Source: Bacilli bacterium (GTDB taxonomy: Bacteria > Bacillota_I > Bacilli_A > RFN20 > CAG-826). Taken from it: a stretch of 64,000 nt of DNA. Positions 8,655 to 14,296 of this stretch are shown here, piece after piece. A program made the translations under genes and the position numbers. The stretch's first letter is position 1; every line of letters starts with the position of its first letter. The stretch is from contig JALCDB010000003.1 of assembly GCA_022641095.1 (NCBI GenBank), positions 62,001 through 126,000 on the forward strand, read 5' to 3'. The notes under the pieces are model-generated. The model searched no databases and had not been told where the DNA came from. It worked only from the letters and a program-made list of their open reading frames with translations.

Positions 8655-9548
8655 TCATGAGGATTGGACGGAATCGATATAGAGATCGGTGATGTTGAAT
8701 TCCATGCCCCGGTAGCAATCGTTGCTGCCGTTGCTGTCGCGGTAATAGTAGTCGTGGGTTCCGTCCGTGGAGCTGTACTTGTAGTAGCAATCGCTCTTGT
8801 TGGAAAAACCGAGAGTGAAGAAGACGAGGTTGGTGTGGTCGCCTTCGATGGTGCCCGACCACATAAGGTATCCGTTCGGGTCCAGTTGTTGGGTGTTGTC
8901 ATAGAACGTGAAGTAATCGCGGCCGTTCCATTCGCAGATATAGGTGGTCATGTATTGGGCGGCATGGGCCGTGTTCTCGGCGTTTGTGCCCTTGGGGTAG
9001 TTGTTGGGATACATGTCGATCGCGCTGGCGAGGCAAACGGGAACGGGGTAGGCGTGCGGGCCGGCAAGATAGCAAACCCCGTTTCCGGGCGAATACCAGT
9101 TTCGGCAATAGAAGCGGACACTGGTGGTCTTTGCGGCGTATATTTCGAAAACGAAGGTGTGGACGACGCCCGGAACCAAGTTCTTCATGTCCAAAGGCCC
9201 GTTTTCTTTGTAGACGTTGCCCGGAACCGAAATGAAGTCCGACGAATAATCGACGCAGGTCTTCCGTTGGCGGGGGTCGGTCGTCGTGGGAGGGCGAGGA
9301 TCGTTGTAACCCGCGAAGGTCGCGACGGGTTTTCCGTCGGCATCGTATGTTGTCGTTTTGTTGTAGACGCAGTATTTTATCTGAACTTTGACGTTTGACG
9401 GATCGGAGATTTTCATGCTCCAAAAAGCGATGTTGGTGCCGGATTTGACGTTGAACCAAGCGAACGTGCTCACGGCCAAAGAGGCGATGGTAAGGAGGGC
9501 CATCATCATCGTGGCGGCGACGTTTTTCGTGAACTTGAACCGACGCAT
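8655..9548 (-). CDS. Secreted surface protein with SipW-type signal (third gene of operon)
   Basis: A 297-residue exported protein. Residues 1-33 form a signal with a long hydrophobic core followed at once by STFAWF, the pattern seen in TasA/camelysin-type proteins cleaved by SipW-like signal peptidases. The mature part is rich in Tyr, Asn, Asp and Cys and is probably beta-structured. It is the last gene of a three-gene operon, two bases after its neighbour, under the c-di-GMP riboswitch at 14193-14254. A minor fibre or adhesin role is inferred, not shown. No SipW peptidase gene is in the window. Confidence 0.65.
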   Translation of the reverse strand: MRRFKFTKNVAATMMMALLTIASLAVSTFAWFNVKSGTNIAFWSMKISDPSNVKVQIKYCVYNKTTTYDADGKPVATFAGYNDPRPPTTTDPRQRKTCVDYSSDFISVPGNVYKENGPLDMKNLVPGVVHTFVFEIYAAKTTSVRFYCRNWYSPGNGVCYLAGPHAYPVPVCLASAIDMYPNNYPKGTNAENTAHAAQYMTTYICEWNGRDYFTFYDNTQQLDPNGYLMWSGTIEGDHTNLVFFTLGFSNKSDCYYKYSSTDGTHDYYYRDSNGSNDCYRGMEFNITDLYIDSVQSS

Positions 9549-9550
9549 GG

Positions 9551-12337
9551 CTACCTCCTGAGGAGCATCGCCTTGGCGTAGCCCTCTGTGTTCATGGGCT
9601 CGTAAGCGAAGTTCGTGTAGTCGGCGTGGACGGAGGCCCCGTAGCCATCCTCGGTGGCCTCGCGATAGTAATAATACGTGGCGTTCCCGGAGGCCAAAGC
9701 CGTCGTGACGTCGAAGGAAACGCGGGTATCGGAGGCTCGATTCCAGGACGCAAAGGAATCGGTGGGGCCATCGAATTCGACGTCGGAGGCCCTATAAAGG
9801 TAGTCAACGTCCTTCATGGTCGAGGAGACGTTGCCATTCGCCCCGGCGAAGAGGAAACCGAAGGAGAGGACATCGAGCGATAAGTCGCCTTGAAGGGCGA
9901 AAAAGCTGTTAAAGAATTGGGCTTCGTCGCCTTGAAGGCCCCGCTGGGAGACCTGAGGGTTCCGATATTGCGGATTCTCCGAGACGAAAGGGCCGCGCCA
10001 AACGTCGTAGAAATTGTTCCAGTTGCCATTCGAGCCGTCGGTGATTTGACTGGCACCGGTCAATGAAGCGGCTTTCCAATGGGTTGCCGAATCGTCTTTC
10101 CCCGGCCCGATCGCGAAGCAAGGATTCCAGGCGGAGGAAGAAGGGTAATCGCCGTAATAGGCCGCCCAAAACGCGGCGTCGTCCCGATTGATTTCAATTG
10201 AAAGCGTCGCCGTCTGCCTCGTCCCGTCGTCAACGATGGGGACCGGGGTGTATTGCGAACCGATCTCGCGATAGCAACGATCGGCGTCGCTATATTGGTA
10301 GGGGTGGTGAAGATCGTACCAAAGAAGGTTCTGCAAAGTCGCGTCTTTGTAGAAGAAGCCTTGGGGGTCGCCACTGCGGTCGTTGTACACCGGTTGGAAC
10401 CTGTGGATGTTCTGGTTGCTGGCATTGTACATGATCTGCCAGCTGTTTTGGTTATGGATGGGATTGGCGGTGGTCGCGACGTAATCGATCGTGAAAGTGA
10501 GGCTGAAAGCCGTTTTGCCGGCGATGGCGTTGATGATGTCCTCGCCGCCGCCGTTGGTGGATACCAAGAAACCGTTATTGAGGCAATAGCCGACCGGAAC
10601 GTTTAAGTCGAGGTCGTAAAGGGAGGCGTCTAGTTCCCCCCGGAGATCGGGATCGTCGTCGCTGAGATCGACCGCGTGGTCGTAGTCGTCGCTTTGCTTG
10701 ATGTCGCCTTCATCGACGAGGCCGTCGCCGTTGCGGTCCGCTATCGCGCCCATGTCGTAACGCCAGTCGCGGCAAAGAGTGTCGGTTGCCCCGGATAGCG
10801 GCTCGTTGAAACGCATCGCGGTTCGACCCGTGGTTTCGTGGATGCTGCCGTCTCCGCTTGCGTAAGCGTAGGATACGTTCTCGTTCTCGCTGGCCGTAGG
10901 ATAAACGCGCATGTATTTGTAGGCCTCGCTGTCGGTCGCGCCGCTAGGCAACTTCAGGTATTCTTTGCTCAACGCGTTCGAATTGGCGATCTGGCGGGCG
11001 ATGTTTCCGCTCGCGTAAGAGTCCAAAGAGGAGCTCTTATCGCGGTAATAATACGTTCCTTCATATGGTTTGGCGGGGGCCTCGAAACTATAGCTGGTGA
11101 CGTTTTTGCCAAAATCGAACGCATGGCCGTATCTTCTGCCGCCCGCCCCATCGCGAACATCATCGTCGCGGCAATGCCCCACGAGCGAGGAACTGGAGGC
11201 GGCCGGGCGGCCCGAAACGACGATTTTGGCGTTGGCGGAGGAGCCGTAATCGTTGCCTCCGACAAGGCCGCAGCACTTGGCGGATCCGTCGAGATCCCCA
11301 CAGAAAAAGCCGACGTAGACGCCATGATAATCACTCGTGCCCCCGTTTGGGTCAAGCGGCCAAATGGTTTTGAAAATGCCGTTTTCCTCATCGACGGAAA
11401 CCCCGGTGCCCTCGTCGGTTATGGAAGTCAGGCCGTCGCTGATCGTCCCATTTCCGAGGACATTGACTTCGTAGCGTTCGACGGTGTAGGCGGAGACCTT
11501 GCCGTCGATTTCGGCGAAAACGCGACCGGTTAGCATCGCCGGAAAGAGGTCCGCGTCCGGATGCTCGCTGGCGGTGGCGTGGGTCACCCACGCCCCGTTT
11601 TCGTAACTTAACAGGCTCTCATCGCTGCTTTCGTAGGCGATCGCGTGCGAATCGCCGTTGGCGTCGACGAGGGATGAGGCAAGGCCCGAGATGGTGGAAC
11701 CGCCGTCGCGATCGGTCCAGGAAACGTAGCCTTCCCCGCTTTGGGTGAGGCTGGGTATCGGCAAATTTTGGGCGGCCCTTTTGAGGATTGAGTGCAGCGG
11801 ATTCGTGCTGTCGGCGTTGCCTCCATCGGCATTGGCCCCGACGCAAACGGTCGGCCCGTCGAGAATAAGGTTCTTGATCGTCCCAGTGATGCCGACGTAA
11901 CCGAACATGCCGATGTCCCAAGTTTGGAAGCCATCGACGAGAAGGCCCGTGATCGTGTGCCCTCGGCCGTCGAAAGTCCCCTCAAAAGGGATGTCGTCGC
12001 TCCCGATCGGCCGCAAAGCCTCGCCGCTCCAAAGGATGTCCGCGCTTAATTCGAATTCGGTCGAAGGGTCGAACAGGCCCAAGGAGTTGAGTTTCTGCAA
12101 ATTGCGCAGCTGCGAGGCCGTGCCGATTAGGTAAGGATTTGAGAGCGTTCCATCGCCGCCGGAAAAATAGGTCGCGCCGACGTTCTCGGTTTCGTAGGTC
12201 ACCGGATTCCTGAACGTGGCCACGTCAAGGTACGCCGCTAGAGAGGCGACGGAGGAAAGGGCAATGACGCTCGCGCCCGAGCACGCGAGGAGGGCGCTTA
12301 GGATCCGTTTGGTTTTCGCGCTCAGTGGCTTTCCCAT
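9551..12337 (-). CDS. Large secreted surface protein with GLUG-like repeat region
   Basis: A 928-residue exported protein. The N-terminal signal (residues 1-35) ends in an AAYLD stretch like SipW-type substrates. Residues 55-170 contain LSNPYLIGTASQLRNLQKL and FEGTFDGRGHTITGL, which resemble the beta-helical GLUG surface-protein repeats and typically lead into adhesin folds. The remainder is long, acidic, Tyr/Asn/Ser-rich and includes several DxDxDG-like acidic loops (for example DRNGDGLVDEGD) that could bind calcium, similar to a dockerin or EF loop. It follows the first gene of the operon by three bases. Function is inferred as surface attachment or matrix. Confidence 0.7.
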   Translation of the reverse strand: MGKPLSAKTKRILSALLACSGASVIALSSVASLAAYLDVATFRNPVTYETENVGATYFSGGDGTLSNPYLIGTASQLRNLQKLNSLGLFDPSTEFELSADILWSGEALRPIGSDDIPFEGTFDGRGHTITGLLVDGFQTWDIGMFGYVGITGTIKNLILDGPTVCVGANADGGNADSTNPLHSILKRAAQNLPIPSLTQSGEGYVSWTDRDGGSTISGLASSLVDANGDSHAIAYESSDESLLSYENGAWVTHATASEHPDADLFPAMLTGRVFAEIDGKVSAYTVERYEVNVLGNGTISDGLTSITDEGTGVSVDEENGIFKTIWPLDPNGGTSDYHGVYVGFFCGDLDGSAKCCGLVGGNDYGSSANAKIVVSGRPAASSSSLVGHCRDDDVRDGAGGRRYGHAFDFGKNVTSYSFEAPAKPYEGTYYYRDKSSSLDSYASGNIARQIANSNALSKEYLKLPSGATDSEAYKYMRVYPTASENENVSYAYASGDGSIHETTGRTAMRFNEPLSGATDTLCRDWRYDMGAIADRNGDGLVDEGDIKQSDDYDHAVDLSDDDPDLRGELDASLYDLDLNVPVGYCLNNGFLVSTNGGGEDIINAIAGKTAFSLTFTIDYVATTANPIHNQNSWQIMYNASNQNIHRFQPVYNDRSGDPQGFFYKDATLQNLLWYDLHHPYQYSDADRCYREIGSQYTPVPIVDDGTRQTATLSIEINRDDAAFWAAYYGDYPSSSAWNPCFAIGPGKDDSATHWKAASLTGASQITDGSNGNWNNFYDVWRGPFVSENPQYRNPQVSQRGLQGDEAQFFNSFFALQGDLSLDVLSFGFLFAGANGNVSSTMKDVDYLYRASDVEFDGPTDSFASWNRASDTRVSFDVTTALASGNATYYYYREATEDGYGASVHADYTNFAYEPMNTEGYAKAMLLRR

Positions 12338-12340
12338 CGG

Positions 12341-14176
12341 TTACCCCAAAAGATAAAGACAAGGGTCAAGCGTGGCCTCTTCGCCGTTTTTAAAGATGGC
12401 GGGCCGATTCTCCGAAAAGCCGCGTTTCGCCGAATCGCAACCAGGTTCGCCCATGGCGAGCCCCCAAAGGGCGATGTCGTTGACCGTCACGGCGAACGCG
12501 CTCGTGCATCCGCCATAGGAAACGGTGATGACTTGGGTCCCGACGACATTGAGATCGGTCGGCGTAAAGCCGCAAGAGCCGGAAACAAATGCGTGGGTGC
12601 CGTCGTTCCAGGCCGCGGTGACGACGAGACCCGTCGTATCCAAGACTTCCCCTTTTAGATAGACCGTTTTGTCAGGAGGAGTGGTAACGGCGATGGAAAC
12701 AAGGGTTTTGTTTTCCTTTGTGACGGAGATGGCGCAGGTGGCCGTTTTGGTGCTGAAACCATCGGTCGCGGTCACCGTAAGCACGCTTTCGCCGATGGCG
12801 ACCGGAACGATGGCAATCAAGGTTCCGTTTATGGAGACGGACGCGACGGACGGTTCGCTTGAAACGGCTCCGATCGTGGCCTCGCCGTCGAAGTTGCAGG
12901 TCTCCGCCATTATGGTGGCATAGCCCCCCATTTTCACCGTAACGACATTTGCCGAAAGGGTCAGGTTAGGACCGGATATGCGCACAACCAGAGTCGCCTC
13001 GGCCGATTGGCTGCCGTTATAAGCCCTTACGTCGAGGGCGGCGGTCCCACTCGTTGGCCCCGAGGCCAGAACCAAAACGTTATTGGCGTCGACCTGGGCG
13101 GAGGCGAGGAGATTGCCCTTGGCGTATGTGATGGCGTAAGTGGGTCTATTCCAGAAATTGAAGGCCGAGACGCCGATTGACCGATCGGTGCTCGAGGGCT
13201 TCATGGCAAGCGTGGAGGCGCTGAGGGCCAGACGCGGGGAATTTGAGTATGAAGAGTCGTAATAGGGAGTGTTCGAAAAATTGAGCCCAACGTCGAAAGA
13301 GACCCCGAAATTGTATTGCCGGGAGCTTGCGCCGTCGTGATTCTGGAAGTATCGCACCCAACTTAGGGGATCGACGCGAAACTCCAAGAAAGTGGATTTC
13401 GAATAATAGTAGTTCGAAGCGTCGTACATATAAGGGAAACCGGGAACGTAGAGCTGATTCTGAACCGTGTAGGAAGCCCCGTAGCTATACCCCGCCATGT
13501 CGGTCGTGTCATTATAGACGTCAAAGTCCCCCGTCTCCTCGGTGATCGCGGTCCAATCGCTTGAGATGTAGGCGCTATCCCCATAAGCGGCCGTGAAACC
13601 ATTGATGCGCTTCTTGGCGGGAGTGTTTTGCTCCGTGACGGCGCGGTACTGGAATTTCAAAGAGCCGTTGAGGTTCGTGTACCCGTCGACGTCGGCGGCG
13701 TAAGCGATGTTCTTAACCCGCGCCTGAATGAAGCCGTCGAACGTCGGCTTGGTGTAACGGAATTCGAGGTAGAGGTGGGGAAAGGACCGCTCATACTGGA
13801 AAAGCTCGTCCCCATAGAGTTCGGCATAGGAGAAATCCGTCGAGAGGGCCGCACTTGAAAAGGTGACCGTGTAAGTGGCCGATCCCGCCTCCGTCTGCTT
13901 TGAGGCATTGAGCAAAGGATTATCGCCATGGTTGCTATGGGCCGCCTCGATGGGGTCGCCGTTTTCGTCCGTCGCGTATCCGGGCACATAGGCATATCCA
14001 TCAACGATCACCGAGCTGTCGTCGGCCGTCATGACGATCTTATTCGCCCCTGGCAGCCGTTGGGTGAACCAGGCGTAGGTGGCGATACTCATCGTGAGAA
14101 TCGATAAAATAAGGCACGATCCGACGATGAGCGTTTTGCCTTGCCCGTGAAATCTTTCCGCTAGTCGCTTAAACAT
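12341..14176 (-). CDS. Secreted surface protein with SipW-type signal and bacterial Ig-like domains
   Basis: A 611-residue protein heading the operon. The signal has a hydrophobic core ending in ATYAWF, again the SipW-substrate pattern. After a region of about 340 residues it has a Big_2-like domain (about 390-470, SVASVSINGT and VLTVTATDG) and a Big_3/4-like domain (about 475-565, with VSIAVTTPPDKTVYLKGE and VITVSYGG). Such domains occur in adhesins. The ATG at 14176 is preferred to a TTG at 14197, because the TTG lies inside the closing stem of the riboswitch. Expression should respond to c-di-GMP. Confidence 0.75.
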   Translation of the reverse strand: MFKRLAERFHGQGKTLIVGSCLILSILTMSIATYAWFTQRLPGANKIVMTADDSSVIVDGYAYVPGYATDENGDPIEAAHSNHGDNPLLNASKQTEAGSATYTVTFSSAALSTDFSYAELYGDELFQYERSFPHLYLEFRYTKPTFDGFIQARVKNIAYAADVDGYTNLNGSLKFQYRAVTEQNTPAKKRINGFTAAYGDSAYISSDWTAITEETGDFDVYNDTTDMAGYSYGASYTVQNQLYVPGFPYMYDASNYYYSKSTFLEFRVDPLSWVRYFQNHDGASSRQYNFGVSFDVGLNFSNTPYYDSSYSNSPRLALSASTLAMKPSSTDRSIGVSAFNFWNRPTYAITYAKGNLLASAQVDANNVLVLASGPTSGTAALDVRAYNGSQSAEATLVVRISGPNLTLSANVVTVKMGGYATIMAETCNFDGEATIGAVSSEPSVASVSINGTLIAIVPVAIGESVLTVTATDGFSTKTATCAISVTKENKTLVSIAVTTPPDKTVYLKGEVLDTTGLVVTAAWNDGTHAFVSGSCGFTPTDLNVVGTQVITVSYGGCTSAFAVTVNDIALWGLAMGEPGCDSAKRGFSENRPAIFKNGEEATLDPCLYLLG

Positions 14177-14192
14177 ATTCTCGGCCGTTTCT

Positions 14193-14254
14193 GACAACTG
14201 GCTATCTCATCGAGACCCTATAGCTTTGCGTCGCCGGTTCGCGCCGGTTTTGCC
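14193..14254 (-). ncRNA. c-di-GMP-I (GEMM) riboswitch
   Basis: Read on the minus strand, the leader has the hallmarks of the class I cyclic di-GMP aptamer: GGCAAAACC, a short hairpin with a GCGA tetraloop flanked by two CCGG arms, the invariant GACGCAAAGC, then GCTATAGGGTCT, and ATAGCCAGTT. GCTAT pairs with ATAGC and TCTC with GAGA to form the second arm; GGCAA (14250-14254) pairs with TTGTC (14193-14197) to close the aptamer. It ends 16 bases before the ATG with no terminator between, so control is probably at translation. It governs the three surface-protein genes. Confidence 0.92.
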
Positions 14255-14268
14255 TTTTTAATACGTTA

Positions 14269-14296
14269 ATTTTATAAAATGATGGATTATTGTCAA
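14269..14296 (-). promoter_or_regulatory. Promoter of the surface-protein operon
   Basis: On the minus strand a perfect TTGACA (14291-14296) is separated by 16 bases from TAAAAT (14269-14274). The RNA would start near 14262, just before the riboswitch aptamer, leaving a leader of about 85 bases. Confidence 0.8.

Follow-up and report, generated by a model that had tools for sequence, protein, structure and literature searches.

In the c-di-GMP-I aptamer, G20, A47 and C92 are the published ligand-contact and stacking positions, and position 20 has been described as helping to determine which cyclic dinucleotide is selected; the Vc2 G20A/C92U double mutant binds c-di-AMP, and crystal structures of the C92U mutant of Vc2 exist. 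The Cd1 aptamer has also been described as being without P1, and in the pilM cGAMP riboswitch a terminator excludes the aptamer, forming an ON switch. With regard to exported proteins of the SipW-dependent type, bsaA is controlled by a two-component system, and in our literature search none of the papers listed was recognized as dealing with c-di-GMP riboswitches before SipW/TasA operons. Here we analyze a c-di-GMP-I riboswitch in a 64,000-nucleotide stretch of DNA (the window) from a 1.59-Mb Bacilli MAG that is 89% complete. It is one more riboswitch of a known family, within an interesting regulon that, in an uncultured order of small-genome Bacilli, links c-di-GMP with a SipW-like peptidase and with the secretion of TxAWF exported proteins, a large family that has no name.

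The aptamer and its operon

A first-pass annotation had described a c-di-GMP-I aptamer here and had proposed an Rfam covariance search as a check. This search (cmscan, whole window) identified a match to the full RF01051 model (positions 1-87) at 14264-14190 on the minus strand, with a score of 52.4 bits (E = 2.2e-7 for the whole window) that lies above the family's gathering score of 35 bits and bears the description out; the three motifs that had been quoted, GACGCAAAGC, GCTATAGGGTC and ATAGCCAGTT, are all present in the aptamer. The stretch originally singled out, 14193-14296, takes in the promoter as well. To number the aptamer positions, we compared the sequence with 61 aptamers from related genomes and drew on the roles published for individual positions. 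The features of the locus are as follows.

14269-14296, minus strand: sigma-70-type promoter, TTGACA-16-TAAAAT, 11 of 12 consensus matches
14190-14264, minus strand: c-di-GMP-I (RF01051) aptamer from cmscan, with G20 at 14254, A47 at 14227, U92 at 14194 and C93 at 14193
14234-14247, minus strand: P2 hairpin, CCGG/CCGG (4 bp), with the GNRA loop GCGA and a C14243 x A14238 mismatch closing the loop
14196-14225, minus strand: P3 hairpin, complete, AGCU/AGUU, GG/CC and GUCUC/GAGAU
14179-14183, minus strand: CGAGA before the start codon, which can pair with UCUCG of P3 (14215-14211); a weak candidate translational platform
12341-14176, minus strand: gene 1, 611 aa, N-terminal TM segment with a TYAWF motif and a Big_3 Ig-like domain
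9551-12337, minus strand: gene 2, 928 aa, exported; a stretch of about residues 1-165 is found again in large proteins encoded close to aptamers in related genomes
8655-9548, minus strand: gene 3, 297 aa, exported "TFAWF" protein; iterating a profile built from it collects 38 ORFs of this TxAWF type from the loci retrieved

The promoter (14296-14269), which fits the consensus better than any other site in 9.7 kb, confirms the one that had been placed upstream of the aptamer. The aptamer begins a few bases from the predicted transcription start and fills nearly the whole leader, and the first ATG, at 14176, lies 16 nt past aptamer position 93 (14193), in agreement with the gap counted initially. 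The operon of three genes was likewise found as described, with the genes arranged head to tail downstream of the aptamer. A TTG start at 14197 was rejected, since it falls within the aptamer and shows no conservation as coding sequence.

The aptamer had also been called textbook, and the P2 with its GNRA loop and the complete P3 are in keeping with this, whereas U92, the C-A closing the P2 loop and the want of a convincing P1 are not. G20 and A47 are present, whereas at position 92 a U takes the place of the usual C. In a set of 62 aptamers, consisting of the window copy and 61 matches in its genome and in genomes of the same genus or order, U92 occurs in only 3: the window copy, its orthologue in the related genome G024 and one other. 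In a wider sample from other families of the class, however, 12 of 43 readable aptamers have U92; all 12 carry G20, and in most of them a clean P1 of the AAUG/CAUU type is seen, which argues that U92 alone is not damage. It is a well-established natural variant, not a lesion as such, and we therefore dropped it as a sign of decay. Very few other aptamers of the order show a mispair at the position that closes the P2 loop. Weak P1 stems are general in the order (median duplex -1.5 kcal/mol), and the absence of P1 was for this reason dropped as a special defect of the window copy.

A coherent G20/U92 subset with AAUG/CAUU-type P1 was observed at L125, L127, L130, L134, L136, L142, L147 and L159, and at L155:126-577 (G087:C2:259425-259876) four tandem c-di-GMP-I aptamers, all G20/U92, lie within about 450 bases; further arrays are a triple in L167 (G075:C65) and a double in L156 (G105). 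An A, which marks cGAMP-type aptamers in Geobacter, stands at the G20-aligned position in 42 of the 62 aptamers of the order; the window copy has G20, without the A20 of cGAMP riboswitches (GEMM-Ib). There was no match to c-di-GMP-II (RF01786), though the control genomes gave none either.

A regulon of three aptamers and its exported proteins

The genome has three RF01051 aptamers: the window copy and one each on contigs C1 and C2. The C1 aptamer, which scores 48.2 bits, below the window copy, leads a paralogous three-gene operon whose homologues of genes 1, 2 and 3 are 39, 43 and 34% identical. The C2 aptamer leads an operon (L077:8216-17200, G000:C2) encoding two exported proteins, an AAA ATPase, a DUF2357 protein, a SipW-like signal peptidase and an EAL protein; the single match to TIGR02228 (SipW signal peptidase) in the genome, at 44.7 bits and below the 51.85 cut-off, lies inside this operon, and its EAL phosphodiesterase could possibly form a negative feedback loop on c-di-GMP. 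Both EAL matches of the genome are on contig C2, and three GGDEF proteins exceed the cut-off, with GGDEF/AGDEF signatures. Neither PilZ nor MshEN receptors turned up in this 89% complete genome, so that of the kinds of c-di-GMP receptor tested, RNA alone was detected.

Across 61 related genomes, which are not independent events, aptamers were found in 27 of the 35 with GGDEF proteins and in 0 of the 26 without (Fisher p = 1.6e-10), and all 27 aptamer-bearing genomes have GGDEF proteins. In 13 of the 27, an aptamer is followed on its own strand, at a distance of 0.2-6.6 kb, by a TIGR02228 match, in many cases one below the curated cut-off. In the relatives, a TM segment that ends in TxAWF opens many of the first genes after an aptamer, and a gene 2-like N-terminal region recurs in their aptamer-bearing loci. 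The same leader had been proposed as something to look for before homologous operons, and aptamers do precede the paralogous C1 operon, the G024 orthologue and a diverged operon in G005, where a terminator and an aptamer with C92 are retained. The coupling of GGDEF proteins, c-di-GMP-I aptamers and exported-protein operons in this lineage is well supported, and to this extent the suggestion that the lineage switches surface or matrix proteins with c-di-GMP is upheld, but the surface or matrix nature of the proteins is a guess and the window copy a putative switch.

Gene 1 matches the Big_3 domain; for genes 2 and 3, no model of Pfam or NCBIfam reaches its cut-off. The SipW-cognate signal model (TIGR04088) has no match among the proteins of the window; one member of the family reached by the gene 3 profile (L031:622-1491) scores 18.3 bits against a cut-off of 19. 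The AF2 model of gene 3 (pLDDT 64) aligns with the TasA fibre subunit 8aur at Z 5.2 (140 residues, rmsd 4.5), no better than with unrelated beta-sandwiches, and the best Foldseek E of the model was 0.005, with nothing at 0.001; the gene 1 model (pLDDT 45) was too low for use. The initial wording "surface-fibre-like" therefore draws on the shared N-terminal motif, the SipW linkage and a weak TasA-like model match, but finds no family match to TasA or camelysin models, and we consider "fibre-like" a reasonable guess.

Candidate expression platforms in the window leader and its relatives

The first-pass annotation had noted that no terminator follows the aptamer and had suggested a very compact translational platform. 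On the coding strand there is indeed no intrinsic-terminator-like site between aptamer and gene, and the compact leader is a real class here, since the ATG lies 8-21 nt past the aptamer match in 16 loci. The start-codon pairing that such a platform would use is, however, not significant: in the window leader neither a partner for P3' (an anti-aptamer terminator) nor pairing of the P3 5' strand with the start region exceeds shuffled sequences (p = 0.36 for each). A translational platform in this leader is plausible. The UCUCG/CGAGA pairing scheme also occurs in G024 (p = 0.11 against shuffles), and in the window leader it may represent a weaker version of the pairing in C1. The basal P3 pairs seldom form in predicted folds of the leader, which is also the case in the relatives, and the folding software ignores the ligand and tertiary contacts.

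In the C1 paralogue (L073:5301-5430, the leader of G000:C1:81301), the P3 5' strand can pair with AUGGCGGGACC, which would cover the start codon with an 11-bp helix (p = 0.0025 from 400 shuffles; with 61 leaders tested, chance would yield about 0.15 such cases), consistent with a possible compact translational ON platform without a terminator. A reading of the window locus in which a terminator-less G20/U92 switch has the P3 5' strand across the start codon as its sole platform, and so tunes translation of exported fibre proteins, draws on likeness to this paralogue, which appears to use the 11-bp helix; in so specific a form we consider it improbable.

A different arrangement is common among the relatives. 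Of the 61 leaders tested in the order, 29, including the C2 copy of the same genome, have a downstream strand complementary to P3' (through position 94) at p <= 0.05, often followed by a T-run. Terminator and aptamer would therefore exclude each other, and these relatives appear to have terminator-type ON switches with the logic described for pilM. In L063 (G014:C5:14704), L062 (G033:C119:125) and L087 (G016:C7:2911), the P3'-competing strand contains the start codon and is followed by a T-run, and the terminator in these leaders would overlap the first codons.

The window copy as a possible switch, and its known counterparts

The only close orthologue of the window leader seen, that of G024, carries the same promoter, aptamer and three genes, with 86-91% protein identity. 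This orthologue, which is 89% identical, has lost P2 through a 10-nt deletion between two CCGGC repeats, which leaves 34.5 bits. At the 4-fold sites of the operon 16% differ between the two genomes; the aptamer differs at 6 of 65 sites in addition to the deletion, which is no clear reduction from the 4-fold rate (p = 0.087), while the P3 half taken alone shows 1 change in about 38 nt (binomial p = 0.011, for a region picked after seeing the data), and both promoter hexamers are unchanged. The C2 aptamer differs at 2 of 87 sites (p = 0.001). The zero divergence of the C1 aptamer was dropped as a constraint control, since near-identity to G024 extends over the entire C1 operon: L073 and L072 (G000:C1 and G024:C1) are nearly 100% identical, against 16% at 4-fold sites of the other operon, which suggests recent transfer or recombination, or a binning error. 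The evidence on the window leader is thus mixed, and points to some constraint followed by P2 loss in one lineage.

A chance match to the covariance model could account for the atypical positions and for nothing further; it was rejected on its E of 2.2e-7, and given also the correct position and orientation at a promoter, and the aptamers before the paralogous and the diverged G005 operons, we regard chance as next to impossible and the window aptamer as a genuine c-di-GMP-I aptamer by descent. An altered pocket, in which G20/U92 prefers another dinucleotide such as mixed A/G, seems very unlikely to us, as common natural variants in structural work reportedly keep useful c-di-GMP affinity. The crystal structures of the Vc2 C92U mutant also stand against it, although the Vc2 double mutant indicates that pocket bases shift preference, position 20 bears on selectivity, and G20/U92 forms a coherent natural subset, with G20 in 12 of 12.

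Considerably more weight belongs to an eroding relic, that is, an ancestral riboswitch that has lost ligand control and whose operon is now driven by the promoter alone. The deletion of P2 in G024, the mismatch closing the P2 loop of the window copy, the missing terminator of the kind kept in G005 and the want of a significant alternative pairing are all consistent with this, but the P3 half and the promoter are kept relative to G024, U92 is a recurrent natural variant, and the score is well above threshold and above that of the C1 copy; we thus hold a relic to be possible but the less probable outcome. On the whole we lean slightly towards the window copy being a working riboswitch, probably weakened relative to canonical ones, counting in its favor the RF01051 match, the kept P3 half and promoter, the co-occurrence with GGDEF proteins, the paralogous operon and the platforms of the relatives, and against it the P2 mismatch, the weak P1, the P2 loss in G024, the aptamer p of 0.087, the lack of significant pairing and the folds that rarely hold basal P3. 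Such a working switch would lead three exported-protein genes with a SipW-cognate-like TxAWF N-terminus, within a three-aptamer regulon that has GGDEF enzymes. Binding of c-di-GMP by the U92 copy, which we infer, would stabilize P3 and raise expression (ON), by analogy with the relatives; since there is no terminator, control would have to operate at translation, by way of the start region that lies 16 nt from the aptamer. With three aptamers on different platforms in a single cell and a half-lost orthologue, the system offers natural material on riboswitch loss and change of function.

In comparison with Vc2, Vc1 and Cd1 (RF01051), the window copy shares the full-length model match, G20, A47, the GACGCAAAG core, a GNRA-capped P2 and P3, whereas it differs by U92 in place of C92, a C-A-closed P2 loop, no convincing P1 and no terminator. 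The pilM cGAMP riboswitch (GEMM-I family) has the same fold, and its exclusion logic is shared by many relatives of the window copy, which itself has G20 and no terminator. Although the window proteins have no sequence-family match to TasA or camelysin models, they resemble those of the SipW-TasA and SipW-BsaA operons in the SipW-cognate-like N-terminus of the exported proteins and in the presence of a SipW-like peptidase within the riboswitch regulon.
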